From Aplectana chamaeleonis (Eukaryota; Nematoda; Chromadorea; Rhabditida; Cosmocercidae), in contig JAPDOI010000268.1 of assembly GCA_029168955.1 (NCBI GenBank), positions 620,001 to 684,000 on the forward strand: a stretch of DNA of 64,000 nt, given 5' to 3'. Every line of letters begins with the position of its first letter. Positions within the stretch are counted from its first letter, which is position 1. Made by a program: the position numbers and the translations under genes. Below, piece after piece: positions 1-54,435 of this stretch. A model generated the notes under the pieces. That model made no database searches, was not told where the DNA came from, and was given only the letters and a program-made list of their open reading frames with translations.

Positions 1-3000
1 CGGCGTCCTGCGAACTCTTAATTGGGTCCCACACACTTTCTACGGCGTGCGACGCACTGTTATTTGGGTCCCACACACTTTCTACGGCGTTCTGCGCGCA
101 CCCATTTGGGTCCCACACACTTTCTACGGCGTCCTGCGCACTGTCATTTGGGTCCCACACACTTTCTACGGCGTCCTGCGCACTCTCGTTTGGGTCCCAC
201 CCACTTTCTACGGCGTCCTGCGCACTCTTATTTGGGTCCCACACACTTTCTACGGCGTCCGGCGCACTGTTATTTGGGTTCCACACACTTTCTACGGCGT
301 CCGGCGCACTGTCGTTTGGGTCCCACACACTTTCTACGGCGTCCTGCGCACTCTTATTTGGGTTCCACACACTTTCTACGGCGTCCGACGCACTGTTATT
401 TGGGTCCCACACACTTTCTACGACGTTCTGCGCACACCCGTTTGGGTCCCGCACAATTTCTACGGCGTCCTGCGAACTCTTAATTGGGTCCCACACACTT
501 TCTACGGCGTCCGACGCACTGTTATTTGGGTCCCACACACTTTCTACGGCGTCCTGCGCACTCTCATTTGGGTCCCACACACTTTCTACGGCGTCCTGCG
601 CACTCTCATTTGGGTCCCACACAGTTTCTACAGCGTCCTGCGCACTCTCATTTGGGTCCCGCACACTTTCTACGGCGTCCGGCGCACTGTTATTTGGGTC
701 CCACACACTTTCTACGGCGTTCTGCGCACACCCATTTGGGTCCCACACACTTTCTACGGCGTCCTGCGCACTCTCATTTGGGTCCCACACACTTTCTACG
801 GCGTCCGGCGCACTCTCATTTGGGTCCAACACACTTTCTACGGCGTTCTGCGCACTCTCATTTGGGTCCCACACACTTTCTACGGCGTCCTGCGCACTCT
901 CATTTGGGTCCCACACACTTTCTACGGCATCCTGCGCACTCTTAGTTGGGTCCCACACACATTCTACGGCGTCCTGCGCACTCTCATTTGGGTCCCACAC
1001 ACTTTCTACGGCGTCCTGCGCACTCTCATTTGGGTCCCACACACTTTCTACGGCGTCCGACGCACTGTTATTTGGGTCCCACACACTTTCTACGACGTTC
1101 TGCGCACACCCGTTTGGGTCCCGCACAATTTCTACGGCGTCCTGCGAACTCTTAATTGGGTCCCACACACTTTCTACGGCGTCCGACGCACTGTTATTTA
1201 GGTCCCACACACTTTCTACGGCGTCCTGCGCACTCCCATTTGGGTCCCACACACTTTCTACGGCGTCCTGCGCACTCTCATTTGGGTCCCACACAGTTTC
1301 TACGGCGTCCGGCGCACTGTTATTTGGGTCCCACACACTTTCTACGGCGTCCTGCGCACTCTCATTTGGGTCCCACACACTTTCTACGGCGTCCTGCGCA
1401 CACTCATTTGGGTCCCACACACTTTCTACGGCGTCCTGCGCACACTCATTTGGGTCCCACACACTTTCTACGGCGTCCTGCGCACTCTTATTTGGGTCCC
1501 ACACACTTTCTACGGCGTCCTGCGCACTCTCATTTGGGTCCCACACACTTTCTACGGCGTCCGGCGCACTGTTATTTGGGTCCCACACACTTTCTACGGC
1601 GTTCTGCGCACTCTCGTTTGGGTCCCACACACTTTCTACGGCGTCCTGCACACTCTCATTTGGGTCCCACACACTTTGTACGGCGTCCTGCGCACTCTCA
1701 TTTGCGTCCCACACACTTTCTACGGCGTCCTGCACACTCTCATTTGGGTCCCACACACTTTCTACGGCGTCCTGCGCACTGTTATTTGGGTCCCACACAC
1801 TTTCTACGGCGTCCTGCGCACTCTTATTTGGGTCCCACACACTTTCTACGGCGTCCGACGCACTGTTATTTGGGTCCCACACACTTTCTACGGCGTACTG
1901 CGCACTCTCATTTGGGTCCCACACACTGTCTACGGCGTCCTGCGCACACTCACTTGGGTCCCGCACACTTTCTACGGCGTCCTGCGCACTCTCATTTGGG
2001 TCCCACACACTTTCTACGGCGTCCTGCGCACTCTTATTTGGGTCCCACACACTTTCTACGGCGTCCTGCGCACTCTCATTTGGGTCCCACACACTTTCTA
2101 CGGCGTCCGACGCACTGTTATTTGGGTCCCACACACTTTCTACGACGTTCTGCGCACACCCGTTTGGGTCCCGCACACTTTCTACGGCGTCCTGCGAACT
2201 CTTAATTGGGTCCCACACACTTTCTACGGCGTCCGACGCACTGTTATTTGGATCCCACACACTTTCTACGGCGTCCTGCGCACTCTCATTTGGGTCCCAC
2301 ACACTTTCTACGGCGTCCTGCGCACTCTCATCTGGGTCCCACACACTTTCTACGGCGTCCTGGGCACTCTCATTTAGGTCCCACAAACTTTCTACGGCGT
2401 CCGGCGCACTGTTATTCGGATCCCATACACTTTCTACGGCGTTGTGCGCACACCCATTTGGATCCCGCACACTTTCTACGGCGTCCTGCGCACTCTCATC
2501 TGGGTCCCACACACTTTCTACGGCGTCCGGCGCACTGTTATTTGGGTCCCACACACTTTCTACGGCGTCCTGCGCACTCTAATCTGGGTCCCACACACTT
2601 TCTACGGCGTCCTGCGCACTGTTATTTGGGTTCCACACATTTTCTACGGCGTCCTGCGCACTCTCATTTGGGTTCCACACATTTTCTACGGCGTCCTGCG
2701 CACTCTCATTTGGGTCCCACACACTTTTTACGGCGTCCGACGCACTCTCATTTGGGTCCCACACACTTTCTACGGCGTCTGGCGCACTGTTATTTGGGTC
2801 CCACACACTTTCTTGGCGCCCGGCGCGCTCTCATTTGGGTCCCACACATTTTCGACGGCGTCCTGCGCACTCTCATTTGGGTCCCACACACTTTCTACGG
2901 CGTCCGGCGCACTCTTATTTGGGTCCCACACACTTTCTACGGCGTCCTGCGCACTGTTATTTGGGTCCCACACACTTTCTACGGCGTCCTGCGCACTCTC

Positions 3001-6000
3001 ATTTGGGTCCCACACACTTTCTACGGCGTCCTGCGCACTGTTATTTGGGTCCCACACACTTTCTACGGCGTCCTGCGCACTCTCATTTGGGTGCTACACC
3101 CTTTCTACGGCGTCCTACGCACCCTTATTTGGGTCCCACACACTTTCTACGGCGTCCTGCGCACTCTCATTTGGGTCCCACACATTTTCTACGGCGTCCT
3201 GCGCACTCTCATTTGGGTCCCACACACTTTCTACGGCGTCCTGCGCACTCTCATTTGGGTCCCACACACTTTCTACGGCGTTCTGCGCACTCTCATTTGG
3301 GTCCCACACATTTTCTAGGGCGTCCGGCGCACTGTTATTTGGGTCCCACACACTTTCTACGGCGTTCTGCGCACTCCCATTTGGGTCCCACACACTTTCT
3401 ACGGCGTCCTGCGCACTCTCATTTGGGTCCCACACACTTTCTACGGCATCCTGCGCACTCATTTGGGTCCCGCACAATTTCTACGGCGTCCTGCGCACTC
3501 TTATTTGGGTCCCACACACTTTCTACGGCGTCCTGCGCACTCTTATTTGGGTTCCACACACTTTCTACGGCGTCCGACGCACTGTTATTTGGGTCCCACA
3601 CACTTTCTACGACGTTCTGCGCACACCCGTTTGGGTCCCGCACAATTTCTACGGCGTCCTGCGAACTCTTAATTGGGTCCCACACACTTTCTACGGCGTC
3701 CGACGCACTGTTATTTGGGTCCCACACACTTTCTACGGCGTCCTGCGCACTCTCATTTGGGTCCCACACACTTTCTACGGCGTCCTGCGCACTCTCATTT
3801 GGGTCCCACACAGTTTCTACGGCGTCCGGCGCACTGTTATTTGGGTCCCACACACTTTCTACGGCGTCCTGCGCACTCTCATTTGGGTCCCACACACTTT
3901 CTACGGCGTCCGGCGCACTGTTATTTGGGTCCCACACACTTTCTACGGCGTTCTGCGCGCACCCATTTGGGTCCCACACACTTTCTACGGCGTCCTGCGC
4001 ACTCTCATTTGGGTCCCACACACTTTCTACGGCGTCCGGCGCACTGTTATTTGGGTCCCACACACTTTCTACGGCGTCCTGCGCACTCTCATTTGGGTCC
4101 CGCACACTTTCTACGGCGTCCTGCGCACTCTCATTTGGGTCCCACACACTTTCTACGGCGTCCGACGTACTGTTATTTGGGTGCCACACACTTTCTACGG
4201 CGTCCTGCGCACTCTCATTTGGGTCCCACACACTTTCTACGGCGACCGGCGCACTCTCACTTGGGTCCCACACACTTTCTACGGCGTCCTGCGCACTCTC
4301 ATTTGGGTCCCACACACTTTCTACGGCGTCCTGCGCACTCTCATTTGGGTCCCACACACTTTCTACGGCGTCCTGCGCACTGTTATTTGGGTCCCACACT
4401 TTCTACGGCGTCCTCCGCACTCTCATTTGGGTCCCGCACACTTTCTACGGCGTCCGACGCACTGTTATTTGGGTCCCACACACTTTCTACGGCGTCCTGC
4501 GCACTCTCATTTGGGTCCCACACACTTTCTACGGCGTTCTGCGCACACTCATTTGGGTCCCACACACTTTCTACGGCGTCCTGCGCACTCTCACTTGGGT
4601 CCCACACAGTTTCTACGGCGTCCGACGCACTGTTATTTGGGTCCCACACACTTTCTACGACGTTCTGCGCACACCCGTTTGGGTCCCGCACAATTTCTAC
4701 GGCGTCCTGCGCACTGTTATTTGGGTCCCACACACTTTCTACGGCGTCCGACGCACTGTTATTTGGGTCCCACACACTTTCTACGGCGTCCTGCGCACTC
4801 TCATTTGGGTCCCGCACACTTTCTACGGCGTCCTGCGAACTCTCATTTGGGTGCCACACACTTTCTGAGGCGTCCGGCGCACTGTTATTTGGGTCCCACA
4901 CACTTTCTACGGCGTCCTGCGCACTCTCATTTGGGTCCCCCACACTTTCTACGGCGTTCTGCGCACACTCATTTAGGTCCCGCACACTTTCTACGGCGTC
5001 CTGCAAACTCTCATTTGGGTCCCACACACTTTCTACGGCGTCCGACGCACTGTTATTTGGGTCCCACACACTTTCTACGTTCTGCGCACACCCGTTTGGG
5101 TCCCACACACTTTCTACGGCCTCCGGCGCATCCCACTTGGGTCCCACACACTTTCTACGGCGTCCGACGCACTGTTATTTGGGTCCCACACACTTTCTAC
5201 GGCGTCCTGCGCACTCTCATTTGGGTCCCACACACTTTCTACGGCGTCCTGCGCACTCTTATTTGGGTCCCACACACTTTCTACGGCGTCCGACGCACTG
5301 TTATTTGGGTCCCACACACTTTCTACGACGTTCTGCGCACACCCGTTTGGGTCCCGCACAATTTCTACGGCGTCCTGCGAACTCTTAATTGGGTCCCACA
5401 CACTTTCTACGGCGTCCGACGCACTGTTATTTGGGTCCCACACACTTTCTACGGCGTCCTGCGCACTCTCATTTGGGTCCCACACACTTTCTACGGCGTC
5501 CTGCGCACTCTCATTTGGGTCCCACACAGTTTCTACGGCGTCCGGCGCACTGTTATTTGGGTCCCACACACTTTCTACGGCGTTCTGCGCACTCTCATTC
5601 GGGTCCCACACACTTTCTACGGCGTCCTGCGCACTCTCACTTGGGTCCCACACACTTTCTACGGCGTCCTGCGCACTCTCATTTGGGTCCCACACACTTT
5701 CTACGGCGTCCTGCGCACTCTCACTTGGGTCCCACACCCTTTCTACGGCGTCCTGCGCACTCATTTGGGTCCCACACTTTCTATGGCGTCCGACGCACTG
5801 TTATTTGGGTCCCACACGCTTTCTACGGCGTCCCGCGCACTCTCATTTGGGTCCCACACACTTTCTACGGCGTCCTGCGCACTCTCATTTGGGTCCCACA
5901 CACTTTCTACGGCGTCCTGCGCACACTCATTTGGCTCCCGCATACCTTCTACGGCGTCCTGCGACCTCTCATTTGGGTCCCGCACACTTTCTACGGCGTC

Positions 6001-9000
6001 CTGCGCACTCTCATTTGGGTCCCCCACACTTTCTACGGCGTCCGACGCACTGTTATTTGGGTCCCACACCCTTTCTGAGGCGTTCTGCGCACACCCGTTT
6101 GGGTCCCGCACACTTTCTACGGCGTCCTGCGCACTCTCATTTGGGTCCCCCACACTTTCTACGGCGTCCGACGCACTGTTATTTGGGTCCCACACACTTT
6201 CTGAGGCGTTCTGCGCACTCTCATTTGGGTCCCACACACTTTCTACAGCGTCCTGAGCACTCTCATTTGGGTCCCACACACTTTCTACGGCGTCCGACGC
6301 TCTGTTGTTTGGGTCCCACACACTTTCTACGGCGTCCTGCGCAGTCTCATTTGAGTCCCACACACTTTCTACGGCGTCCTGCGCACTTTCATTTGGGTCC
6401 CACACACTTTCTACGGCGTCCTGCGCACTCTTATTTGGGTCCCACACACTTTCTACGGCGTCCGACGCACTGTTATTTGGGTCCCACACACTTTCTACGG
6501 CGTCCTGCGCACTGTTATTTGGGTCCCACACACTTTCTACGGCGTTCTGCGAACACTCTCATTTGGGTCCCACACACTTTCTACAGCGTCCGACTCACTG
6601 TTCTTTGGGTCCCACACCCTTTCTGAGGCGTTCTGCGCACTCTCATTTGGGTCCCACACACTTTCTACGGCGTCCTGCGCACTCATTTATTTAGGTCCCA
6701 CACACTTTCTACGGCGTCCTGCGCACTCTCATTTGGGTCCCACACACTTTCTACGGCGTCCTGCGCACTCTCATTTGGGTCCCGCACACCTTCTACGGCG
6801 TCCGGCGCACTGTTATTTGGGTCCCATACACTTTCTACGGCGTTCTGCGCACTCTCATTTTGGTCCCGCACACTTTCTACGGCGTCCTGCGCACTGTTAT
6901 TTGGGTCCCACACACTTTCTACGGCGTCCGACGCACTGTTATTTGGGTCCCACACACTTTCTGAGGCGTTCTGCGCACACCCGTTTGGGTCCCGCACACT
7001 TTCTACGGCGTCCTGCGCACTCTCATTTGGGTCCCCCACACTTTCTACGGCGTCCGACGCACTGTTATTTGGGTCCCACACACTTTCTACGGCGTCCTGC
7101 GCACTCTCATTTGGGTCCCCCACACTTTCTACGGCGATCTGCGCACTCTCATTTGGGTCCCACACACTTTGTTCGGCGTCCTGCGCACACTCATTTGAGT
7201 CCCGCACACTTTCTACGGCGTCCTGCGCACACTCATTTGGGTCCCACACCCTTTCTACGGCGTCCGACGCACTGTTATTTGGGTCCCACACACGTTCTAC
7301 GGCGTTCTGCGCACACTCATTTGAGTCCCGCACACTTTCTACGGCGTCCTGCGCACTCTCATTTGGGTCCCACACACTTTCTACGGCGTCCTGCGCACAC
7401 CCGTTTGGGTCCCACACACTTTCTACGGCGTCCTGCGCACTCTCATTTGGGTCCCACACACTTTCTACGGCGTCCTGCGCACTCTAATTTGGGTCCCACA
7501 CACTTTCTACGGCGTCCTGCGAGCTCTCATTTGGGTCCCACACATTTTCTACGGCGTCTGGCGCACTTTTATTTGGGTCCCAAACACTTTCTGCGGCGTT
7601 CTGCGCACACCCATTTGGGTCCCACACACTTTCTACGGCGTCCTGTGCACTCTCATTTGGGTCCCACACATTTTCTACGGCGTCTGCCGCACTGTTATTT
7701 GGGTCCCGCACACTTTCTACGGCGTTCTGCGCTTTGGGTCCCGCACACTTTCTACGGCGTCCTGCGCACAACCATTTGGGTCCCGCACACTTTCTACGGC
7801 GTCCTGCGAACTCTCATTTGGGTACCACACACTTTATACGGCGTCCGGCGCACTGTTATTTGGGTCCAACACACTTTCTACGGCATCCTGCGCACTCTCA
7901 TTTGGGTCCCACACACTTTCTACGGCGTCCTGCGCACTCTCATTTGGGTCCCGCACACTTTCTACGGCGTCCGGCGCACTGTTATTTGGGTCCCACACAC
8001 TTTCTACGGCGTCCTGCGCACTCTCATTTGGGTCCCACACACTTTCTACGGCGTCCTGCGCACTCTCATTTGGGTGCCACACACTTTCTACGGCGTCCTG
8101 CGCACACTCATTTGGGTCCCACACACTTTCTACGGCGTCCTGCGCACTCTCATTTGGGTCCCACACACTTTGTACGGCGTCCTGCGCACTCTCATTTGGG
8201 TCCTGCACACTTTTTACGGCGTCCGGCGCACTGTTATTTGGGTCCCACACACTTTCTACGGCGTTCTGCGCACACCCGTTTGGGTCCCGCACAATTTCTA
8301 CGGCGTTCTGCGCACTCTCATTTGGGTCCCACACACTTTCTACGGCGTCCGGCGCACTGTTATTTGGGTCCCACACACTTTCTACGGCGTCCTGCGCACT
8401 CTCATTTGGGTCCCACACACTTTCTACGGCGTCCTGCGCGCACCCATTTGGGTCCCACACACTTTCTACGGCGTCCGGCGCACTGTTATTTGGGTCCCAC
8501 ACACTTTGTACGGCGTCCTGCGCACTCTCATTTGGGTCCCGTACACTTTCTACGGCGTCCTGCGCACCCATTTGGGTCCCACACACTTTCTACGGCGTCC
8601 GGCGCACTGTTATTTGGGTCCCACACACTTTCTACGGCGTCCTGCGCACTCTCATTTGGGTCCCACACACTTTCTACGGCGTCCTGCGCACTCATTTGGG
8701 TCCCACACACTTTCTACGGCGTCCGGCGCACTGTTATTTGGGTCCCACACACTTTCTACGGCGTCCTGCGCACTCTCATTTGGGTCCCACACACTTTCTA
8801 CGGCGTCCTGCGCACTCACATTTGGGTCCCACACACTTTCTACGGCGTCCTGCGCACTCACATTTGGGTCCCACACACTTTCTACGGCGTCCGGCGCACT
8901 GTTATTTGGGTCCCACACACTTTCTACGGCGTCCTGCGCACTCTCATTTGGGTCCCGCACACTTTCTACGGCGTCCGGCGCACTGTTATTTGGGTCCCAC

Positions 9001-26758: not shown

Positions 26759-26966
26759 TACAGGCCATAAAACGGCCAATGTCTCACCGTCGACTGCGTA
26801 CCACGCGCTGCGCGACCGCACGCGCGTCGGAAGCAGACGGGTTTTGGCCGCCGCGCGACGAGTTTTGGCCGCCGCGCGACGTTTCGGCCGCCTTCCGACG
26901 CACGTGCGGCCGCGCAGCGCGTGGTACGCAGTCGACGGTGAGACATTGGCCGTTTTATGGCCTGTA
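26759..26966. mobile_element. Foldback MITE with 73-bp arms and TA flanks
   Basis: The left arm starts TACAGGCCATAAAACGGCC and the right arm ends with its complement, GGCCGTTTTATGGCCTGTA. The arms stay complementary for about 73 bp, through ACCGTCGACTGCGTACCACG and on to CGTCGGAAG, with few mismatches. The centre holds two full and one partial copy of a 21-bp unit built on GTTTTGGCCGCCGCGCGACG. TA lies on both sides, as expected for the Tc1/mariner superfamily, and there is no coding capacity. The family name is unknown. Confidence 0.85.
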
Positions 26967-27405: not shown

Positions 27406-27409
27406 GCCA

Positions 27410-28570: not shown

Positions 28571-30703
28571 CAGGGATGTGCGTAATTATGACTAATGAAC
28601 AACGAATTTAACGACTAATGGGCTTTTTGGGTGTTACGCCTAACGACTAACGACTAACGAAATCAAAAATATTTTCGTAAACAGTTCCAAATTTAGCTAG
28701 ACAATTAATATTCTAGTATACATATAAGATAAAACTATTAGGCATTTACATCGCGCTCCAACCCAAGGATGAAATCAGGATTGATACATACAGTTCCCTG
28801 TTGGTTGTCCGAGGCGGGTGATACAAAATAACCATAGCCTTCAGTTATTATTACCAGGAAGTTTTGTCGCTCGATAAGAGAGGACGTTGCTACTAGCCCA
28901 AGTTTTGTTTTGTTTAGCTGGTACACTCTTCATATGAACGAATGTGAAGTTTCATTTCAATCTGTCAATTCATTCCTTGTTTACAAACCATTTAGTGTCG
29001 CCGTGTCACAGCAAAGAAAAAAAATTGAGTATCATGCAGTAATAAAATTCTTATTTTTGGAAGGTTTAGCACCAAAAGAAAATCACAAATGAATCTTGAA
29101 GGTGTATAAAGATTGTTCACCTACAATCAGAACAGTAGAAGGATGGGTTGCTGAATTCAAGCGTGGTCGTACAAGCCTTGAAGACGATCCACATGAAGGA
29201 CGTCCAGAAAGCGCATCAATACCAGAAATCATAGCCAGAATACAGGATATGGTTTTGGAAGATCGTCGATTGACTGAGAGAGATCCAGTAGAGGCTCTAC
29301 ACATCTCATTAGACAGTGTGAGCCATATTTCAAGCGAAGTTTTGGGTTTTAGAAAGCTGTGTGCACAATGGGTGCCGCATTCGCTAACAATGGAACAAAA
29401 ACACATTCGAATGCGACTTTCTCAGCAACATATGGAGCGTTTTTAAAAGGATAAAGTGGATTCAGTCGATTCCTCACTATGGATGAGACTTGGGTCTATC
29501 ACCATGATCCTGAAAAAAAAATTAAGAGGCTAAAGATTGGTGTGAACCTGGTTGTTCGGCTTCGAAACGAGTTCAAGTCCGGAAATCGGCCAAGAAGGTT
29601 ATGGCATCAGTTTTTTGGGATGAGAAAAGAATTTCGTTTGCGGATTACTCGCAATCTGGTAAAATAATTAATTCTGAATATTATTGCAACCTTTCGAACC
29701 AGTTGAAGGAAAAAATTTGTGAAGAAAGACCCGGTTTGCAGAAGAAAAAAATCCTTTTCCATCAGGACAATGCACCGTGTCACAAGAACATTTTAACAAT
29801 CAAAGCTTATTGAACAACCCGATATTTCTAATGACACTGCTTCGCAGTTCTGAAACCACTACATTATGTCCACAACCGAACGTTGCGCAAGGTCAAGCGC
29901 AGCACTAATGCAACTTCGGTCGCGCGACTTTATGGTAGACTCATTGAACAGGTCCTGACATTGACCGGCTCCACTAGAGTATCTTACAGAGGGCATTTTC
30001 AGAGGTGATAATATGGAGAGCCGCCTGTAGGCCGTAACTGCGCACCGACGATGATTGGATTGTAATGGGCGCCGTACTCCAATTTTCAGTCATTAATTCG
30101 AGATATGGGATTTCTATAAGGTGGTTCTGGGATCTATCAATGGGTGAAATATTCACTTGGGTGCTAATTTCTCCCCACCTTTCCCCCATTTTGAGAACCA
30201 GCTCGAAACGACGCGCGCGCTCAACTCGCGACGCTGGGAAAGGGACAATTAGTGCAAAGTTGGTGCAGTTCTACGTGTTTTCACCATAGAGCAGATCTCA
30301 TATAGCATCTTATAGCGGAGAACGCGCTGAAAAAAAGCGAAGAGCTCAAGGTTCCCTGGGTTTCCCGTATTGCTTCTTTTCTCGTTGAAAAAAGGACAAA
30401 ATCGGCAAGGACACTCTTGAGTATTAGGCTTTCATTCGTATCTTCAATTATGTTTATGTAGGCTTGCTGTTTGAACTAGGTTCTCTAACGTTAAATGTTT
30501 TGTGTGCCTAATGGCCATGAATATTTTGGAAAACATACATCGCTTCATGCCTTCCTTATTTTTGTCTTTGTGAGGGTTTTTTTCTGCCTCAACTGTGCTT
30601 ATTTTTAAAGCCTGGATCTTGAACGACTAACGACTAACGGGGGTTTTAGCCGGTTGAACACTAGCGACTAACAATTTACAAATTTCTATTACGCACATCC
30701 CTG
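28571..30703. mobile_element. hAT-type DNA element, 2,133 bp, with 8-bp target duplication
   Basis: The ends are a perfect 16-bp inverted repeat: CAGGGATGTGCGTAAT on the left and ATTACGCACATCCCTG on the right. The flanking octamers are GTGGTTAT and TTGGTTAT, identical at seven of eight positions. CAGGG-type termini and 8-bp duplications are hallmarks of the hAT superfamily. Both subterminal regions carry repeated AACGACTAACGACTAACG, which would suit transposase binding sites. I recognise no hAT transposase inside. The interior instead contains a decayed mariner transposase (28,905-29,815) and unassigned sequence, so this copy is non-autonomous and carries a nested or captured element. Confidence 0.88.
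28905..29815 (+). pseudogene. Mariner transposase pseudogene, 3'-truncated
   Basis: Conceptual translation shows the N-terminal helix-turn-helix region of a mariner transposase (EYHAVIKFLFLEGLAPKE near 29,030), the region with TIRTVEGWVAEFKRGRTS, and the first two catalytic aspartates in MDETWVYHHDPE and FHQDNAPCHKN. The gene is broken in at least five ways. There is an in-frame TGA at 29,090 and a TAA at 29,444. One frameshift lies between about 29,460 and 29,480 and another near the A-run at 29,514-29,525. Similarity ends after 29,813, before the third catalytic aspartate. A product could not transpose. It resembles the mellifera/Hsmar2-like side of the mariners, but the subfamily is not certain. 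No mariner inverted repeats could be placed at its edges. Confidence 0.9.
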
Positions 30704-31109: not shown

Positions 31110-31645
31110 GAGTAGCCATTGATGCGGAGCGTGTGCCGCCTCATTGAAAATGGCGAACGCTTCATGAGAAGCGTGCTACACGTCATGGAAAAAAGAGTCG
31201 CGCTTTACGAGAAGCGTGCGCCGCGTCATGGGAAGTGGATCCCGCATTATTAGGAGGGTGCTCCGTATCATGGAAACTGAGTAACGCTTCACGAGAAGCG
31301 TGCCCCGCGTTACAGAAAATGAGTCGCCCTTCATGAGAAGCGTAAACCGCGTCCTGAAAACTGAGTCACGCATCATACGAAGTGTGAGCCGCACCATGGG
31401 TTATGAGTCGCGCCATGTGAGAAGCGCGCGTCGCGTGATGGAAACTATGTCACGCTCCATGAAAAGCGTGCTCCGCGTCGTAGAAAATGAATCGCGCACC
31501 ATGAGAAGTGTTCGCCGCGTCATGGAAATTGAACCACGCACCATGATGAGCGTGCGCCGTTTCATGGAAATTCAATTGCGCACCATGAGAAGCGTGCGCC
31601 GCGTCATGGAAAATGAGTAGCGCTCCATAGGCAGCGTGATGGCGG
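31110..31645 (+). repeat. 42-bp tandem array A2, about 12 monomers
   Basis: Monomers contain GCGTCATGGAAAATGAGTCG and GCGCACCATGAGAAGCGTGC. The TCATGG landmark recurs at 31,226, 31,268, 31,310, 31,352 and onward to 31,604 with exact 42-bp steps, although individual units differ at many sites. The core CGTCATGGAAAATGAG occupies the same register as CGCCGTAGAAAGTGTG of A1; ungapped identity to A1 is 21 of 42. A 106-codon plus frame with 14-residue periodicity (MRSVRRVMENE type) results from the period and is probably not a gene. Confidence 0.9.
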
Positions 31646-41780: not shown

Positions 41781-41919
41781 GGTACAAAAAATAATGCGCG
41801 ATAGGATAGAAGAGTAAGGAAAAGATTGTCGGCAAAAAATGCAGCAACAGCAGATCATTAGCGCTCCGAGGCTATTCAGCGGAAGCGCGCCGCTTGCATG
41901 ACGAGTGGGTGTGGCCTTG

Positions 41920-42600: not shown

Positions 42601-42689
42601 ACTGCGTTCTCGCAACCATCCCGCCTATCAGGGAGACGTCCAGTAGGTTTTCTACGTGCCTGGGTCAATCCTTCCCTCTTTTTACGAGA

Positions 42690-43140: not shown

Positions 43141-43254
43141 AATTTCATTTTTTTCAAGAATTTCGAGCGAAAAAGCAAGAAGAAGGGATCTGGCTCGGAA
43201 TAGACCGAATAAACGCCTGTAAAATGGCTTTAACGCGCTCAGTAGCTGAAAGCA

Positions 43255-44445
43255 CTTCATGGCTTGTGTGCAGTACCCGGGATCCAGTTAGGAGTACGCC
43301 AAATGCCGGGGAGTGTGTACGGGACCTAGCTGGGAGTGCGCCAAGCTCCGTGGAAAGTGTGCGGGATCCAACTTGAAGTGCGCCACGCGCCGTGGAAAGG
43401 GTGCGCGACCCGACTGGAAGTGCGCCACGCGCCATGGAAGTGTGCGCATCCAACTGGAAGTTCTCCACGCGCCGTGGGAAGTGTGCACGACCCGACTGAA
43501 AGTTCTCCACGCGCCGCGGAAAGTGTGCGCAATCCGACTGGAAGTGCGCCACGCGCCGTGGAAGTGTGCGCATCCAACTGGAAGTTCTCCACGCGCCGTG
43601 GGAAGTGTGCACGACCCGACTGAAAGTTGTCCACGCGCCGTGGAAAGTGTGCGCAACCCGACTGGAAGATCGCCACGCGCCATGGAAGTGTTCGCATCCA
43701 ACTGAAAGTTCTCCACGCGCCGTGGGAAGTGTGCGCGACCCAACTGCAAGTGCGCCACGCGCCGTGGAAAGTGCGCGTGACCCAACTGGAAGTGCGCGAC
43801 GCGAAGTGGAAAGTGAGCGTGACCCAACTGGAAGTGCGCGACGAGAAGTGGAAAGTGTGCGCGACCCGACTGAAAGTTCTCCACGCGCCGTGGAAAGTGT
43901 GCGCAACCCGACTAGAAGTGCGCCACGCGCCATGGAAGTGTGCGCATCCAACTGGAAATTCTCCACGCGCCGTGGGAAGTGTGCACGACCCGACTGAAAG
44001 TTCTCCACGCGCCGCGGAAAGTGTGCGCAACCCGACTAGAAGTGCGCCACACGCCGTGGAAGTGTGCGCATCCAACTGGAAGTTTTCCACGCGCCGTGGA
44101 AAGTGTGCACGACCCGACTGAAATTTCTCCACGCGCCGTGGAAAGTGTGCGCAACCCGACTGGAAGTGCGCCACGCTCCATGGAAGTGTGCGCATCCAAC
44201 TGAAAGTTCTCCACGCGCCGTGGGAAGTGTGCGCGACCCTTTTGCAAGTGCGTCACGCGCCGTGGAAAGTGCGCGTGACCCAACTGGAAGTGCGCGACGC
44301 GAAGTGGAAAGTGCGCGTGATCCAACTGGAAGTGTGCCACGCGCCGTGGAAAGGGTGCGCGACCCGACTGAAAGTTCTCCACGCGCCGTGGAAAGTGTGC
44401 GCAACCCGACTGGAAGTGCGCCAAGAAAATGTACGGGACCCTACT
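43255..44445 (+). repeat. 42-bp satellite array A3 in a 124-bp triplet
   Basis: About 28 monomers occur, each of the type CCACGCGCCGTGGAAAGTGT followed by GCGCAACCCGACTGGAAGTG. In much of the array three monomers of 40, 42 and 42 bp alternate. The 40-bp type (GGAAGTGTGCGCATCCAAC) starts at 43,425, 43,549, 43,673, 43,923, 44,047 and 44,171, giving steps of 124 bp (250 bp once). A 42-bp A3 monomer agrees with the A1 monomer at 30 of 42 positions without gaps, on the opposite genomic strand. The 124-bp unit shifts frame, so no frame stays open for long. The flanking monomers are degenerate. Confidence 0.93.
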
Positions 44446-45129
44446 GTGTTTGCGCTGAATGTGAGACCGGTCTGGTTTCGAGGAGCACTAATTACTAAAC
44501 TCTTATCTGGCAATGATTTGATCATTGTATGCGTCATAATACACGCCTACAAGTACGCCGCGAAGCGGCGTAGGTGTGCATCTTGTGTCAGCAAATGTGT
44601 CCAGGACGTCATTCAAAGGGTGCGCGATATCGTTCCGGCGATACGTAATCGCTACGCTTTAGAACAAATGAGTGCGAATCACAGCGTCACATGTACCGCG
44701 ACGTTGAGAGCGCGCGTAAGTAGGAGCGTTGAGTCTTTCCATTAATTGTATTTTCCTTTCTTTTATTTTCCTTTCGCATTTTTTGCATTTGCGCGCACTC
44801 TGAATCAGCACGAGCATCATGTAAATAGTGTGCGCTGGCACCCTTGTCCTAAAAAGCATTGTTGAAATCGCAGGTGTCCGCGCATTGGGTTTGTGTGCGC
44901 GCACTCCAAACTGGAACACGCACATCTGAAGTGGTGTATCCTCTGTATAGAATAAAATTTCCCATCACTGAGCGCGCGCGCTCTTGCGCGCGAAGCACAC
45001 CGAGCTCCGCAGCGGCTGCTTGTGGGCTATCTCGCGGCTTTCCGAATAACGGACAAGAAATAGTCGGGAAATAGCCAGGCAATAACAGAGATGTAGAAAA
45101 GACGTAACTTAAAGTAACCAAGACGCAGC

Positions 45130-45300
45130 CGTTGCCGGCTCTCCGAGCCTCCATCCGGCTCCGCCAGCTGTTAAGCTGGTGCTCCAGATGCTGAGCGGGG
45201 TCCAAGCACCTCAAACGTGGGTAGGTGAACCTATAGAGGTGTTGACATCCGGATCATGACTCTGAAATGCGTCGTATACTTGCCTGGACAGCATTATTTC
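45130..45300 (-). repeat. SINE-like repeat, copy 1
   Basis: Aligns gappily with 60,530-60,670: shared ATGCTG, GCGGGG, AAG, GGGTA, TGAACC, GACATC and TGCGTCGT occur in the same order. On the minus strand GGTTCACCTACCC (45,219-45,231) has the form of a Pol III B box. No tRNA could be folded. Classification as a SINE is tentative. Confidence 0.4.
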
Positions 45301-45425
45301 TAGGCTATTTTGACGCGAGCATTATTTGGCGGCTATTGCGCAACGAGCATTATTTATGGGCTATTTCGAGGCAAGCATTATTTGGCGGCTATTTCGCGGC
45401 AAGCGAGCATTTCGAGGCTATTTAC
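45291..45425 (+). repeat. 28-bp minisatellite, about 4.5 copies
   Basis: GCATTATTTGGCGGCTATTT followed by CGCGGCAA is repeated with substitutions, the last full copy carrying a 4-bp insertion. It lies between the SINE-like repeat and a MITE. Confidence 0.8.
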
Positions 45426-45655
45426 TATAGTTGTACACGAACGAAATTTTCGAAAAAATTTCGAAAGATTTTTCGAAATTTTTTCCGTTCGTTTTCGTTC
45501 GTTCGAAATTCCGTCGAACGAAATTTTTTCAAATTTCGTTCGTTCGAAATTTTTTCGAACGAAAATTTTTCGATTTTCGTTTGTTCGAGATTGTGCGAAC
45601 GAAAAAATTTCGATTTTCGTTCGTTCGACATTTTTTTTGAAGTTGTACAACTATA
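45426..45655. mobile_element. MITE rich in TTCGAACGAAA palindromes (230 bp)
   Basis: Ends TATAGTTGTACA and TTGTACAACTATA are inverted; the outer TA pairs may be the target duplication. The interior consists of AAATTTCGTTCGTTCGAAATT-type words in both orientations. The K/N/F-rich reading frames on both strands are low-complexity by-products. Confidence 0.7.
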
Positions 45656-48060: not shown

Positions 48061-48329
48061 GTGGGAACTATACTTCGACCAAATCGAATGATTCGTAAAT
48101 TAAATATTCGATTAAAGAAGGCGACTTCGAATCATTCGAAAAGCCGAAAACGAAAAGGCCAAACTCGAATTATTTGGAAAATCGAATATTCGAAAAGTGA
48201 ACATTCCCGAATTATTCGCAACACCGAACATTTGAAGAAAAAAACGATTCCCGATTTCTCCTAGAGTATGTCAACGAATATTCGGAAAACGAATATTCGG
48301 TCGAATAAACGAATAATCGAATATTCGAA

Positions 48330-48530
48330 TAATTCGAGTATTCGAAAAAGTCAATTTTTCGAATAATTCGCTTATTCGAATATTCGAAAGAGTCAATTGT
48401 CCGATTTATTCGTTTATTCGGATATTCGGAAAAGTCAATTTTTTGAATAATTCGCTTATTCGAATATTCGAAAGAGTCAATTATCCGAATTATTCGTTTA
48501 TTCGAATATTCGAAAATTTTTATTCGTTTG
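48330..48530 (+). repeat. 42-bp tandem array A6, AT-rich, about 4.5 monomers
   Basis: GTCAATT starts at 48,350, 48,392, 48,434 and 48,476, exact 42-bp steps. Each unit contains ATTCGCTTATTCGAATATTC or ATTCGTTTATTCG, then GAAAGAGTCAATT. Degenerate CGAATATTCG words continue left to about 48,060. The period equals the other arrays. Sequence agreement with their core is limited to GAAAG(A/T)GT, so common origin is open. Confidence 0.85.
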
Positions 48531-48545
48531 ATATCCTCTAATTTA

Positions 48546-49009
48546 TTCGTGATTTTCTTCTGGTCTGATGAGGAGCAATTAGAAATAAATCTGGGGTGGT
48601 AGTAAATGGGTAGATAACCGCGAGTTAACTCGCGGTTAACTGCAGCTGGCCGTGAGCTGTTCAGTTGACGATTCTCAGGAGATGCGCCAGGCATTTCTTA
48701 AACTGAGCACACTCATGGCACTGTATGAGCCACTAGATACGCATTGAAAAAAAAAATTCGAAAAAAAAATGGTCCGTTCTGCCTTTTCTTTCGGAGAAAA
48801 ATTAGTGATTTAGAATTTTTTTCAAGTTTTTTTTTTGAGGTTTTTTCAGCTCGCCATAAGTCCGCGCAAAACAGCAACTTAACTTGAGCTGACAGTGAAA
48901 AATGGAAATAGTGTGTGAATGAAGAAAAAGATGGAAAGGTTGCGAAAAAGGCCTCCGTAGGGCTTTTTCGGAAGCTTTTTCGAAGCCTTTAAGTCACACT
49001 CACAAGTGG
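48546..49009. other. No gene recognised
   Basis: AT-rich spacer with poly-T runs, and the words GGCCTCCGTAGGGCTTTTTC / GGAAGCTTTTTCGAAGCC near 48,950. Nothing else is evident. Confidence 0.4.
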
Positions 49010-49076
49010 CGAGGAAAAAGAGGAAGAATAGGAAGAAGACGAGGAAAAGGAAGAAGAGGAAGAAGAGGAAGAAGAG

Positions 49077-49108
<32 letters not shown>

Positions 49109-49131
49109 AGAAGAAGAAGAAGAAGAAGAAG

Positions 49132-49160
<29 letters not shown>
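49010..49160. repeat. GAA/AAG microsatellite, left
   Basis: Pure or nearly pure AAG repeat, grading on its left side into GGAAGA and GAGGAAAA. It produces spurious poly-Lys, poly-Ser and poly-Leu frames on both strands. Confidence 0.98.
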
Positions 49161-49162
<2 letters not shown>

Positions 49163-49797
49163 GCTGCTCCTCGGATTGCCACAGGGTGTGCTAAAAAGCA
49201 CCCCAGGGGAACATCTTCATGCTGAAGCCCGAATTCTACCAGTTAAGGAGCACCGCCAACTCCAAGCGCAGCAACTGGTTATTAACATTGTCAAGCAGCC
49301 TGACCACCTATTAAGAAGGATCATGAATCCCGTGAGAGAGAGACATATTAGAAGGCATTTTGCGGATGCTCCGAGAAAGTTAATATACAAAGATGGACGG
49401 ACTCCCAACTGGATCGTCTGCGTCTTTATGCGCGGAGCACACCAAGTTCGTCAGGGATCACTTGAGTAGGATGACCGTCAATCCCATATTGGGGGTCGTA
49501 ACACCCATAGTCAGCGACACCGAGATGGAACTCGGTAGGCGGGCTAGAAGTACCCTTGCCTCGTTACGCTGCGGTCATTCCCCTAGGCTGATGTCATACT
49601 TGCATAAGATCGATCGCAGTCGCATAGATCGATCGCAGTAAGCCGGACGAGTGCCCGGACTGTGGTAGCAGTGGCCACACAACTGCACACCTAATCGAAT
49701 GCCCGAAGAGGCCTACCACTCTTACAACAATGGATTTGTGGACGAATCCGGTTTCAGTCGCCCGTTTCTTGAACCTTTGACAAAAACCTTCCTGCGG
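49161..49797 (+). pseudogene. Non-LTR retrotransposon 3' end (Jockey/CR1-like C-terminus)
   Basis: Translation gives the segment typical of the end of Jockey/CR1-group ORF2: HLHAEARILPVKEH near 49,215, then RSTLASLRCGHSPRLMSYLH near 49,550. After a frameshift comes the C-terminal zinc-knuckle motif CPDCGSSGHTTAHLIECP near 49,652. A 19-bp tandem duplication of AGATCGATCGCAG-type sequence (starts 49,607 and 49,626) helps to break the frame, and further shifts separate the parts. The reverse transcriptase domain is absent. The fragment runs straight into an AAG microsatellite, which may be its 3' tail, and starts directly after another. It is non-functional. Confidence 0.82.
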
Positions 49798-49800
49798 CTG

Positions 49801-50062
49801 CAAAGAAGAAGAAGAAGAAGAAGAAGAAGAAGAAGAAGAAGAAGAAGAAAGAAGAAGAAGAAGAAGAAGAAGAAGAAGAAGAAGAAGAAGAAGAAGAAGA
49901 AGAAGAAGAAGAAGAAGAAGAAGAAGAAGAAGAAGAAGAAGAAGAAGAAGAAGAAGAAGAAGAAGAAGAAGAGGAGGAAGAGGAAGAGGAAGAGGAAGAG
50001 GAAGAAGAGGAGGAAGAGGAAGAAGAGGAAGAAGAGGGGCAAGAGGAAGAAGAAGAAGGGTT
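49801..50062. repeat. AAG microsatellite, right
   Basis: About 260 bp of AAG repeat degenerating to GAGGAA at its right side. Adjacent to the LINE 3' end, it could be that element's tail after expansion. The long low-complexity frames here are not genes. Confidence 0.98.
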
Positions 50063-50144
50063 TGAGAAGTACAAGGTGTCTAGAGGGTAGACGGAATCCT
50101 TGAATAAACAACGCAGTGGGGTCCGAACGATCAAATGATGATTC

Positions 50145-50320
50145 CGAGCAACAAGTGGTTTTACGGGGCAACAAGTGAACCTGCGGGGCAACAAGTGATT
50201 TTGCGGGGCAACAAGTGATTTTAGGGTCAGCAGCTGCTCTTTCGGGGCAACAAGTGACTTCGCGGGGCGACTAGTGATTTAGTGGGGGTACAAGTGGTTT
50301 TGTGGGCACAAATGCTCACA
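50145..50320 (+). repeat. 20-bp minisatellite, about 8 copies
   Basis: GGGGCAACAAGTGATTTTGC recurs with drift (CAGCAGCTG, GACTAGTGA, TACAAGTGG variants). GCCCAGGTGTCACTGGGCAACAAGTGAG at 50,366-50,393 may be an outlying copy (shown here only by its position and the word GGGCAACAAGTGAG). Confidence 0.8.
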
Positions 50321-51366
50321 ATCGCCCCACACTTTCCATGTCGCGCCCCAGAAAAATGACTTGTTGCCCAGGTGTCACTGGGCAACAAGTGAGTTTGTGT
50401 AGGGCTACACGCGAGCGATTGCCAGAGTTGCCACTGGAACTCCTAACCTTAACGAATGGTATAAGGAAGGGCTGGGCATCCACGGTGGTGCTGGTGGAAA
50501 CTATTTCGGAACTCGTTTCAATAACGGCAGAATATATTTTTCCGACTTTTCTGCAGTATCATAGGTTTTCTGGGGCTCATAGGGTCCGTTAGTGGTCTTA
50601 ATGGCATCGGTATGCTTATAACATGTGATTCAAGTAGTTCTAATCCTTCAAAAGTGGACTTTTCTTCAGGAAAAGTCGTATGGACCACCCATTACAAAAT
50701 ATCTGATTCAAACGCGCTCCATTTTCGCGCCGAGGCTTTTCGGCGGCAATAAGTAATTTGAACTCGCGAGCAGCGGCGTTTCGCGCGTCAGCGGAGGGCG
50801 GCGGCGCGTGTGGCCGGCGTTCGCATCAATCGCTACGAACTTTTTTCTTCCCGTGTTGGCTCTTCGCAGTAACTTTCAAATTCTACTTTTCAACTGTTCA
50901 GGGCTATGAATGCAACATTTCAGCTTCGTTGTTGAGAGATTTCTCGGTCACTTTCTCACCTGGAAAGCACTTTTATTAAGGTTTTTTTTTCGCTTCTTAA
51001 AATCGTTGAGAAAAAGGCTTCGAACGAGATTTCTATTGATTAATGTTCAACAACAGCATTCAGTAAGGGTTTTGTCTTGATTGCAGTGAGCAAATGGAGG
51101 AATCCTAACCTGCCGTTATCAGTTGGGAGAATCACCTCCCGTAAATGCACACGAAATCGAGTTTGGTGTGTGAATTCGTTTAGATAACCTTTTAGATGAA
51201 TTTGGCCAAAGCCAAAACTGCTATTTTGTATTTGTTTATGACAGGTCATGCCTGCATAATTAAGTTATATAGAAAAGAAGTGAAAGTACTGAGTATAAAA
51301 ATACAGGAAACGAATATAATAGCAATATGAATTGAAACAGGCTCAATCATCCTCAGTCATCAAGTA
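50321..51366. other. No gene recognised
   Basis: A minus frame 51,040-51,249 (69 codons) looks somewhat protein-like and may belong with the LINE fragment that follows, but it lacks a recognisable motif. A GC-rich patch near 50,760-50,820 has no identifiable content. Confidence 0.4.
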
Positions 51367-52165
51367 CTAATCCAAGCTACGTTTGAAAGCGAAAAGAGTT
51401 GAAGGGAGGTTGCCCTTCTTCAGTAACTTTTCGAACTCACTTCCTAATCTATTAACAAAGAAATGGTGCATCAGACTCTCCCTGGCTCTGTTGCGGACGA
51501 GCTTGAAACTGCTGCCTCTTTTGGTAGATGCCCTGTGTAGGAGGAAATCGTCCATAGCCTTTACAAGCTCTGATAAACCATCAGAATATCGAACCTTTTC
51601 TTCTGGAGGTCATCGATTCGAGTTGTAGCTCCTTATTCCTGGCAATGCTGCAGGGCATTTCACTATAGCTGAGACCCATGACCCTGATCAAAGTATTCCG
51701 TGTGAAGCTGTTTTGAAGTTTTTTCAACACACCACTGGTCGAGACCTTGTCAGGGTTGGAAATTACAGTTCCATACTCAAGGTGGAGTCTTACATACGAT
51801 TTATAAGCATTTAGAAGCACCCTTTAGATACTGCTGGACAGGGCTCTGAACATGCTATACATAACTTTACTAGCTTTAGACACGGCCCTAGCACAATGAT
51901 CATCAAAAGTGAGGTCACTGCGTACCAGGAGGAAACCCAAATCCATTATCACATCGACAACCTCGAGCTGCTGGCCACCAAGGGTATAAATAGCAGCTGA
52001 ACTATTGCTTCTAATGTGCAAGACTTCAGTTTTTTCCCTTGAGAGCAACATACTCCAGTCTCCAGACCAGCTTGCAACCTTATTCAACGCCATTTGCAAG
52101 TACTCCCTCTCACGCGTCTGTATCGGAGAGAAAGTTTTGAAGTCATCAGCATTTGAATGGATTTA
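51367..52165 (-). pseudogene. CR1-like LINE fragment: end of reverse transcriptase
   Basis: On the minus strand the fragment starts at a degenerate catalytic box, NADDFKTFS (52,140-52,160), where the first residue should be aromatic. It continues with YLQMALNKVASWSGDWSMLL, EKTEVLHI and the VRLHLEYGTVISNP segment, ending with HHFFVNRLGSEFEKL-type sequence. This order is the palm/thumb and C-terminal region of CR1/L3-type nematode LINEs. Frames 52,099-51,824, 51,820-51,581 and 51,555-51,367 are separated by stops or shifts. The 5' part, with the fingers and endonuclease, is missing, as is usual for 5'-truncated insertions. It is a different lineage from the RTE-like element at 61.3 kb. Confidence 0.85.
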
Positions 52166-53038
52166 AGTGGGGCCTCATCAACCACAGCCTAGGCTGGTAA
52201 AAGTAAGCTGGGTGGGCGACCACATCGCGCGATGAAAGCAAAAAGTTTGAGTGATTTTTCAGTTTTGAAACTGGCAACGCGCACTCCCTTATTTGCCACT
52301 GGGTTTACTAGCGCTGACCTCATTGCAGTGCACAGCTCTCACGTAAAAGGCCCGGCTACAATATTGACGCATGGAAGGGTATCGATAGCTATAGGCCTCC
52401 ATTGGCGACCGTCCCATGTCTAGTTGGAGCCGTTTCTGTCATTTAATATTGCGCTCAGCAAAACGATTAAGACATCGAGATTTCGTCGACACAAGATTCG
52501 TTTGGACATTTTGACTTACTACACCATCACTGTAGGGTTTAGAGTCGTACAAAACCCCTATGCTCAGTCTCACATCAATAGTTGCTGTCAGAATAAAATT
52601 TGCCAATAATCGATAATGAAACAGCTGATATTTTTTTGTGTTTTGGTTTTTTATATGTTTCTTTCACTTTTTCGCGTTGTTCCTAATTGTATGTATATTG
52701 TTTTTCGCGCTATTCTTGTACATAAAATACGTTACATGCAATTTTGGTGTGTGTTCGAGTGAGAACTTATCGTTTCGAAGCGTTTCCGGTTCTTTTTCTC
52801 CAGAATTGAGGTAAAATTTAACTTTGTGCAATGTATTCATTTCATGTGCGCTGTATTGGTAAGAATCTGATAAAATGATCGTTTTGCTAAACGCATTCAT
52901 TATTGCTTGTTTTTATGTAACGGTGCTTCCGATAATATGTGAAAAGTTGTTCTGCGTTTATTGTGGAATTCACCATTTTTAATGGATGTTGGACTAAATG
53001 CTTTTTAATAAGTTTCGAACTAAATTCTATTTTTTCAG
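52166..53038. other. Spacer ending in a splice acceptor
   Basis: AT-rich, no domain recognised. The right edge, CTATTTTTTCAG, ends at 53,038 and is a strong nematode splice acceptor, either for an unseen upstream exon or for a trans-spliced leader. Confidence 0.45.
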
Positions 53039-53052
53039 GGATAATATCAGCC

Positions 53053-53398
53053 ATGGCCCGAGACGCAGCACATCGCGCGTCGAAAAGAGTATGTTCTCTG
53101 TGTTCTCAAGAACTTCTTATGATAGTCTACACCGATTTCACCTGTTTTGCTTTCAGACTTTGAAAAGAAGAGCTGGAAGTCAAGATTTCGCAAGAAAGCA
53201 GGAGCCTAAAAATGTAATTTGTGGACTTGAGCTGACCTCTTTGACATCATCTGAATTTCAACCCGTTTCCAGGCAGCTCGATGGGGTACCACCACCATCA
53301 AACTCAGGAGCTTGGTCAAGGATTTCATAGTAAACCAGGAAGGCGGATATTTCTCCTATAATGAGAGCAAGGTGCGAGGATTTTATAGTCACTTTTAG
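53053..53398 (+). CDS. Small three-exon gene, 72-residue basic protein, unknown
   Basis: Exons are 53,053-53,088, 53,157-53,213 and 53,273-53,398. Both introns (68 and 59 bp) start GT and end TTTCAG or TTTCCAG, and all exon lengths are multiples of three. Reading through intron 1 would meet a stop, whereas the spliced frame stays open to TAG at 53,396. An acceptor TTTTTTCAG ends 14 bases before the ATG, as expected for a trans-spliced nematode mRNA. The product begins MARDAAHRASKRTLKRRAGS, is strongly basic in its first half, and ends with a Tyr/Phe-rich stretch. No family is recognised, and there is no signal peptide or membrane segment. It ends 26 bases before the first repeat core of array A4. 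Exon 1 codes for only 12 residues, so an upstream exon is possible. Confidence 0.6.
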
Positions 53399-53411
53399 AT
53401 TTTGCGATTTT

Positions 53412-53521
53412 GAAAATTATCGACGTCATAGAAAGTGTTCAGGACCCCAGTGTGAGTGTAAAGGACGTCATAGAAAGTGTGCAGGACCCCAGTGGGAGTG
53501 TAAAGGACGTCATAGAAACCC
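53412..53521 (+). repeat. 42-bp tandem array A4, about 2.5 monomers
   Basis: CGTCATAGAAA starts at 53,424, 53,466 and 53,508 (42-bp steps). Units contain GTGTGCAGGACCCCAGTGGG. Ungapped, the monomer agrees with A1 at 32 of 42 positions, the closest match among the arrays. It abuts A5, which carries the core in the opposite orientation. Confidence 0.9.
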
Positions 53522-53529
53522 GCTGACTT

Positions 53530-54435
53530 AGACAGGTGCAGCAACCCCGGAGCTCTCTCAGAAGCACTTTTCACGACGTCCGGATGACGTCATCAGAAGC
53601 CAGAGGCACTTTTCACGACGTCCCGATGACGTCATCAGAAGCCAGGTGCACTTTTCACGACGTCCCGATGACGTCATCAGAAGCCAGGTGCACTTTTCAC
53701 GACGTCCCGATGACGTCATCAGAAGCCAGATGCACTTTTCACGACGTCCCGATGACGTCATCAGAAGCCAGATACACTTTTCACGACGTCCCGATGGCGT
53801 CATCAGAGGCCAGATGCACTGTTGATGACGTCCCGATGACGTCATCAGAATCCCGAAGCACTTTCCACGACGTCCGGATGACGTCATCAGAAGCCAGATG
53901 CACTTTTCACGACGTCCCGATGACGTCATCAGAAACCAGATACACTTTTCACGACGTCCCGATGACGTCATCAGAAGCCAGATGCACTTTTCACGACGTC
54001 CCGATGGCGTCATCAGAGGCCAGATGCACTGTTGATGACGTCCCGATGACGTCATCAGAATCCCGAAGCACTTTCCACGACGTCCGGATGACGTCATCAG
54101 AAGCCAGATGCACTTTTGAAGACGTCCCGATGACGTCATCAGAAGCCAGATGCACTTTTCACGACGTCCCGATGACGTCATCAGAAGCCAGATGCACTTT
54201 TCACGACGTCCCGATGGCGTCATCAGAGGCCAGATGCACTGTTGATGACGTCCCGATGACGTCATCAGAATCCCGAAGCACTTTCCACGACGTCCGGATG
54301 ACGTCATCAGAAGCCAGATGCACTTTTGAAGACGTCCCGATGGCGTCATCGGAGGCCAGATGCACTGTTGATGACGTCCCGATGACGTCATCAGAATCCC
54401 GAAGCACTTTTCAAGACGTCCCGATGACGTTATGA
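53530..54435 (-). repeat. 42-bp satellite array A5 with 210-bp higher-order repeat
   Basis: About 21 monomers contain CACTTTTCACGACGTCCCGA and TGACGTCATCAGAAGCC. A marker monomer with CCGATGGCGTCATCAGAGGC starts at 53,791, 54,001 and 54,211, exactly 210 bp (five monomers) apart, with a fourth, slightly different one at about 54,338. Read on the minus strand the core is GGACGTCGTGAAAAGTG, close to GGACGTCATAGAAAGTG of A4. Most monomers contain the perfect 12-bp palindrome GATGACGTCATC, which includes the CRE/ATF site TGACGTCA. The 299- and 277-codon frames on the two strands follow from the period. Confidence 0.95.

Follow-up and report, generated by a model that had tools for sequence, protein, structure and literature searches.

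The 64,000-nucleotide stretch of the Aplectana chamaeleonis assembly analyzed here (the window; contig JAPDOI010000268.1, below C1356, at C1356:620,001-684,000) carries six separate tandem arrays with a 42-bp unit, which raises the question of whether such different sequences descend from one repeat and, if so, how the length of their unit was kept. The assembly comprises 1,036,593,504 bases in 2087 contigs (~1.04 Gb). Tandem Repeats Finder (TRF) reports period 42 for all six arrays, as the original prediction had stated. The arrays, with the evidence for each, are as follows.

A1, 1-23901, minus strand (strand of the core motif): main 42-bp satellite array, continuing left of the window (TRF, unit cutting).
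A2, 31128-31628, plus strand: old, diverged 42-bp array (TRF, units, profile tests), putatively linked to the others via array L039 (26/42).
A3, 43315-44423, plus strand: 42-bp array whose higher-order unit is 124 bp (42+42+40), with a 498-bp repeat and more diverged edge units (TRF, units).
A6, 48317-48516, plus strand: AT-rich 42-bp array, not a member of the family (profile p 0.47-0.62; halves 4/21).
A4, 53422-53518, plus strand: short 42-bp array of only 2.3 copies, halves 13/21 identical (TRF, profile tests).
A5, 53559-54438, minus strand (opposite to A4): 42-bp array with a GATGACGTCATC palindrome and a 210-bp (5-unit) periodicity (TRF, profiles); putative relatives L018 (33/42) and L039 (28/42).

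Splitting the arrays into units by cyclic alignment gave 566 full units for A1 (32 with an indel; mean identity to the consensus 93.8%), 11 for A2 (1; 80.7%), 26 for A3 (7; 88.2%), 20 for A5 (0; 93.9%), four for A6 (91.1%) and two for A4. In A1, TRF reports period 42 over 1-23,190 and another row (period 21) to 23,897. The right edge of this array is abrupt, and its left start probably lies near C1356:608,194 (TRF on stretch L016), with A1 matches left of the window at C1356:608,541-613,458 and 619,951. The exact core motif, CGYCRTRGAAARTG, was counted 448 times in A1, 7 times in A3, 3 times in A5, twice each in A2 and A4, and 0 times in A6; the A5 consensus differs from it at one base.

Consensus identity to A1 is 32/42 for A4, 31-32/42 for A3, 19-20/42 for A2 and 20/42 for A5, close to the earlier hand counts of 32, 30, 21, and 20, respectively. 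We compared consensuses pairwise with 1000 dinucleotide-preserving shuffles, taking each of the 84 registers into account (42 rotations on both strands). The matches A1-A3 (31-32/42), A1-A4 (32) and A3-A4 (27) were above all 1000 shuffles, A2-A3 (25-26/42) had p<=0.001, and A2-A4, A2-A5, and A4-A5 had p 0.01-0.03, while taken alone the pairs A1-A2 (p 0.16 and 0.33), A1-A5 (p 0.10) and A3-A5 (p 0.28 and 0.31) were not significant in this test. Profile comparisons gave z 8.2 for A3-A1, 8.4 for A4-A1 and 5.7 for A4-A3. Against the joint A1+A3+A4 profile, A2 reached z 4.4, exceeded by none of 1000 shuffles, and A5 reached z 3.1 (p 0.011), rising to z 4.2 (p 0.001) against the joint A1-A4 profile. 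The likeness between arrays is above that of shuffled sequence, and the proposal of a superfamily withstood this check. In nhmmer searches, the A1 profile matched A4 (1.5e-13) and A3 (5.8e-13), the best match in the reversed window being 0.043, the A2 profile matched A3 at 7.7e-6 (best in the reversed window 3.6e-4), and the A5 profile matched no other array in the window below 0.6. Judged by their consensuses, A1, A3, and A4 clearly form a single family, with 27-32 of 42 positions identical. Beyond columns 1-14, the likeness of A2 and A5 to these three is close to what chance would give (p 0.07 and 0.20), so that the membership of A2 and A5 leans on intermediates. The profile of A6, which served as a negative control, was like that of no other array, and A6 was rejected as a member of the family.

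Such intermediates were found elsewhere in the genome. We placed 30 2-kb stretches by hand before viewing them, of which 26 existed (52 kb). Three of the 26 contain family arrays, together 4,539 bp or 8.7% of the 52 kb:

L039, 937-2000 of an arbitrary stretch: family array with a 42-bp unit.
L043, the whole of an arbitrary stretch: family array with an 84-bp unit, its halves matching A1 at 28 and 33/42.
L053, 1-1475 of an arbitrary stretch: family array with a 42-bp unit, matching A4 at 34/42.

The remaining TRF arrays of at least 100 bp in these stretches measured 118 bp (period 50), 181 bp (period 58) and 137 bp (period 44). Not one of the 16 stretches viewed first, among them L039 and L043, contains the exact 14-bp motif; since these two hold arrays, part of the family escapes any count of the exact motif. 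L039 matches A5 at 28/42 and A2 at 26/42, with none of 500 simple shuffles as good for either, and also A4 (23/42, p 0.010), A3 (22, p 0.004) and A1 (22, p 0.026). Its best match to all of A1-A5 falls at one register and strand, and we take L039 to be the missing link joining A2 and A5 to the family. L018, which lies near an A1-type array, is a relative of A5 (33/42) and in the A5 register also aligns with A4 (22, p 0.012) and A2 (21, p 0.014), its matches to A1 and A3 not being significant (p 0.48 and 0.68). When eight subfamily consensuses were compared, the register common to all ranked first of the 84 in 24 of 28 pairs, some of which are not independent because L018 and L053 had first been turned to the rotation that fitted one member best and A1-A5 had been registered by the motif. 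Through arrays elsewhere in the genome, A2 and A5 very probably belong with A1, A3, and A4, sharing their orientation and register. Of the original claim of five arrays with a common core, the part on A1, A3, and A4 is clear, and that on A2 and A5 stands by way of the joint profiles and intermediates; the sixth array, A6, is unrelated. A query with A1 over the genome returned at least 129 matches on at least 21 contigs including its own (40 of 1253 candidates scored). Tandem head-to-tail arrays of related units are present at many loci, as expected of a satellite DNA superfamily.

The spacing of the core was counted genome-wide with the pattern GAAARTG-gap-CGYCRTRGAAARTG, that is, the last seven bases of one core followed by a whole core. 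There are 289,749 core pairs at spacings of 21-51 bp (147,635 + 142,114; reversed control 0 + 1), including 26,918 (9.3%) at 21-41 bp (control 0 + 1) and 11,202 at 43-51 bp (control 0), which by subtraction leaves 251,629 (86.8%) at exactly 42 bp if each site was counted once. Among 100 listed matches with spacings of 21-41 bp, 78 were at 40-41, 15 at exactly 21 and 7 elsewhere. Pairs of the A5-type palindrome (GATGACGTCATC at spacing 30-60) occur at 222,398 sites (control 0), and among the matches listed, all on contig C1, all but two were at 42 and those two at 41. The genome-wide excess at 42 bp, whose absence would have counted against the original prediction, is seen in the core-pair counts. 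The idea that unit length was kept while the sequence changed stands to the extent that spacing is mostly 42 bp, but not for the fixed 40-bp units of A3 or for the 9.3% of pairs at 21-41 bp. At ~42 bp per pair, the exact matches alone account for ~21 Mb, or ~2% of the assembly, and the small arbitrary sample, with its wide error, suggests that the share of the family is higher; we estimate 2-9% of the 1-Gb genome. This satellite superfamily of the nematode genome is real and very abundant, with units mostly of 42 bp built on 21 bp. Viral contigs scanned with the A1/A3-type pattern gave no match.

The original prediction missed that 42 is 2 x 21. Within the 42-bp consensus, one half matches the other at 12/21 positions in A1 and A2 and 13/21 in A4 (p 0.0002-0.003), and at 10/21 in A3 (p 0.046), while A5 has no significant 21-bp symmetry (7/21, p 0.24), the halves of A6 agree at only 4/21 (p 0.88) and those of L039 do not look symmetric (6/21). 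In 15 of the 28 subfamily pairs, the two best of 84 registers were 0 and 21, the second of which has a chance of 1 in 83. The joint 21-mer of the halves is CGCCATGGAAAGTGTGCGGGA. Consistent with a 21-bp ancestor, array L032 (base 145-2265; C1:2,917,145-2,919,265) can be cut into 100 21-mers whose order is mixed (identity 0.67 at lag 21 and 0.75 at lag 42), L030 has a unit of 105 bp (5x21), and core spacing in the genome has a minor peak at 21. We therefore read the 42-bp unit as a dimer of a 21-bp protomonomer whose halves still match in A1-A4, though not in A5. Half a is identical at 18/21 between A1 and A3 and at 17/21 between A1 and A4; this half-by-half agreement suggests that the dimer is older than their split. 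A2 fits A3 slightly better when shifted by 21 (24-25 vs. 23), and it is possible that A2 dimerised separately. Five other arrays in the window with units of 20-22 bp had no kinship to the 21-mer (p 0.16-0.62), and the best solo 21-mer outside the window arrays (at 50,323, score 17.2) equaled the best of 40 simulated and was not significant.

Higher-order structure occurs in several arrays. In A3 both the 124-bp unit (42+42+40) and the 498-bp repeat are also reported by TRF, A1 has a faint 3-unit periodicity (0.914 vs. ~0.90) and L024 has a 126-bp unit. The outer units of A3 are more diverged, matching at 26 and 24/42 just beyond the TRF limits (background 95th percentile 19). Diverged edges and higher-order units of this kind are the usual picture of local homogenisation.

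The best explanation, in which we place high confidence, is that a repeat of 21 bp formed dimers and spread, each array then being homogenised on its own. A tandem repeat of about CGCCATGGAAAGTGTGCGGGA would have given rise to a 42-bp dimer whose halves then diverged, and short pieces of it would have spread to many genomic sites, probably without a selected function. Each array would then have been amplified and homogenised locally, by unequal exchange, slippage or rolling-circle copies, which would yield array-specific consensuses in one register and secondary units of 84, 105, 124, 126, and 210 bp. Variation within A1 is lower in half a (p 0.007), an effect that A2 and A5 do not have; constraint could be another cause of it.

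The alternative that survives best, although we consider it unlikely, is that unit length is selected at 2 x 21 bp while the sequence itself drifts freely. DNA has ~10.5 bp per helical turn, so that 21 bp make two turns, and a bound protein or the chromatin fibre would recognize the repeats from one side of the helix; jointly with selection on length, this too is unlikely. The genome-wide fidelity at 42 bp (251,629 of 289,749 core pairs, by subtraction) is high, as expected under such selection. The ratio of indels to substitutions is 0.034 in A1, 0.011 in A2, 0 in A5 and 0.098 in A3, where the deletions go back to a few copied events. At the A1 ratio, the expected number of length changes is ~0.4 for A1 vs. 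A3, which leaves a chance of 0.66 that none occurred, and 1.3 for A1 vs. A2 or A5, where that chance is ~0.28; with the A3 ratio, the expected numbers are nearly three times as high. Single array pairs need no length constraint, but with a chance of ~0.28 per distant pair, many unchanged distant pairs are unlikely without some brake, and a genome full of such pairs might require one. Deletion alleles in A1 are single in 16/22 cases, compared with 25/110 for substitution alleles, so deletions spread less, which would be expected from selection or from register alike. In-register homogenisation would also purge odd lengths, however, and the fixed 40-bp units of A3 indicate that unit length can change. 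In addition, our comparisons are ungapped and between units of the same length, so that length changes are hidden in them.

Conservation of the core bears on the same alternative. In the five arrays A1-A5, the first 14 columns are conserved at 0.81, compared with 0.45 (p 0.001), and none of 2000 trials with A2 and A5 shuffled and realigned did as well, in favor of a bound protein. With eight subfamilies, however, the values are 0.70 and 0.51 (p 0.11, not significant), and for A1, A3, and A4 alone p is 0.25. In A5, L018, and L039 it is the other half that is more conserved, and the motif owes its prominence mainly to its presence in arrays like A1-A4. Special conservation of the 14-bp core, which seemed real with five arrays, was no longer significant with eight subfamilies. 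The CENP-B box is a 17-bp element with 9 essential bases. The arrays have 5-7 of these 9, no better than shuffles (p 0.14-0.999), which also counts against a bound protein, and we rejected their designation as CENP-B-box-bearing satellites. The suggestion that protein binding or wrapping keeps the length gains no firm support from these results: shared descent is enough for single pairs, A3 has fixed 40-bp units, 9.3% of pairs have spacings of 21-41 bp, and across the eight subfamilies the excess conservation of the core over the rest is not significant.

Spread by transposition, with the arrays forming part of transposable elements (Helitrons or others with internal tandem repeats), is less probable still. 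In C. elegans, Helitrons are associated with many short satellites, which make up a large group, according to the available text of PMC4595182. The window itself contains transposon fragments: Pfam, run on the six reading frames of 24-64 kb, matched a transposase piece and, below the cut-off of the model, a mariner-like HTH at 29.0-29.7 kb, as well as a reverse transcriptase piece from a non-LTR retrotransposon at 61.4-61.7 kb. However, no Pfam transposon domain was found adjoining an array, the nine 1-kb flanks of the window arrays have no common sequence (blastn E<0.01), and A1 is tens of kb long.

That A2 and A5 are unrelated arrays, with a common period and short motif by chance, is very improbable. 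The single tests with A1 (p 0.10-0.33), and that of A5 with A3, are what would be expected by chance, but the joint profile tests (p<=0.001) are not, the intermediates L039, L053, and L018 largely refute this reading, and an A5-type unit at C2:2,504,335 bears the exact core. A repetitive protein of 14 residues per 42 bp is highly improbable as the product of the arrays: the unit length is divisible by 3, A1 is open over long plus-strand frames, A5 has open frames of 295 and 302 codons, and the nonsynonymous/synonymous-like ratio is low in one of six open A3 frames (0.56; range 0.56-1.42) and one of three A5 frames (0.48; range 0.48-2.19), each from few variants, but A1, the largest sample, has no synonymous excess in its four open frames (0.89-1.13) and 23-33 stops per plus-strand frame, and protein searches with one A1 and one A5 frame gave no match at E<=0.001. 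With no convincing coding sign in stops, variant types or protein relatives, a protein-coding role was set aside as highly improbable.

Alpha satellite has a ~171-bp unit and belongs to monocentric centromeres. The superfamily resembles it in its dimers of diverged monomers, higher-order units and local homogenisation (described in part in the available text of PMC3694981). The same text describes a satellite library in Meloidogyne chitwoodi and M. fallax, nematode satDNAs of 32-64% identity with monomers of ~169-170 bp that likewise have short conserved boxes and dimeric and higher-order arrays; here, in contrast to that library as described there, the unit is 42 bp with a 21-bp protomonomer, no likeness to the CENP-B box was found, and units could be counted over the whole genome. 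Many dispersed short-unit arrays in sequence families are also known from Caenorhabditis, where the largest family has 213 member satellites (PMC4595182, available text). According to that text, some related short satellites of C. elegans seem to differ in unit length, and the Caenorhabditis families that differ are 17_20, 3_34, and 20_37, and 1_35 and 9_43, if the last number is read as unit length. Against this background, as far as that source describes it, length fidelity here is notable: divergent subfamilies keep 42 bp over hundreds of thousands of units. A short motif recurring in nematode repeats is also a feature of the C. elegans meiotic pairing-centre repeats bound by HIM-8 and ZIM proteins, whose 12-base motifs are enriched at one end of each chromosome (PMC9071541, available text), whereas the arrays here are on at least 21 contigs, unplaced on chromosomes. 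A description of a 42-bp/21-bp superfamily was not found in searches of the open-licence literature on nematode, hookworm or holocentric satellites and tandem repeats.

The near-fixed unit length, together with the survival of stages of 21 bp, 42 bp, and higher order side by side in a single genome, allows the birth and splitting of satellites to be read directly. The question of a selected satellite length also becomes testable, since the rates of indels and of substitutions can be compared over hundreds of arrays. The superfamily probably adds noticeably to this 1-Gb genome, which is large beside those of hookworms (~244-319 Mb, with Necator americanus at ~244 Mb, in the available text of PMC12193031).

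Some minor observations concern the rest of the window and genome. Scans of the window with Rfam (gathering threshold) and ARAGORN returned nothing, and a sub-cut-off Pfam match to BUD22 lies over an AAG-repeat region. All 90 protein matches listed for the retrotransposon fragment of the window are from Necator americanus, the best being 78% identical. The Rfam SL1 model had at least 3 matches in the genome, all below its cut-off (50 of 256,011 candidates scored), and the 22-mer of the nematode spliced leader SL1 occurs 1024 times (control 0), as expected of a nematode genome.

The 42-bp satellite arrays A4 and A5 (window positions 53422-54438) are separated by a gap of 40 bp, lie in opposite orientations and belong to two different subfamilies. 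Other repeats and transposable-element fragments in the window are as follows:

26759-26966, 57164-57430 and 63712-63955: three inverted repeats
29021-29744: broken pieces of a mariner/Mos1-like transposase, HTH_48 (below cut-off) and Transposase_1
50148-50306: 20-bp tandem array, unit GCAACAAGTGATTTTGCGGG
57862-58038 and 60773-60949: dispersed 177-bp repeat, two copies with 97% identity
61425-61715: part of the reverse transcriptase from a non-LTR retrotransposon

When the 20-bp array was tested against the 21-mer, the inferred ancestor of the 42-bp satellite superfamily unit, kinship was not found (p 0.31). A site resembling the 21-mer adjoins this array at 50323.

The inverted repeats, which have arms of 75-131 bp with 87-97% complementarity, resemble MITE or foldback elements. 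The two transposase pieces are in different frames, and the nearest relatives of an ORF at 61632, adjoining the reverse transcriptase fragment, are copies in Necator americanus, among the 90 protein matches listed.

Across the genome there are 1024 exact matches to the SL1 spliced-leader 22-mer. Among the 100 matches listed, the sites are on contigs C1-C22 and are mostly wide apart, unlike one single 5S/SL cluster; these copies may mark retrocopies from trans-spliced mRNAs.

Satellite-rich contigs may be over-represented in the range of about C100-C1250 of the assembly. The contigs sampled there are in most cases short (about 100-240 kb), with exceptions, and the 2-kb sample from one of them, C400 (L043), is satellite from end to end.
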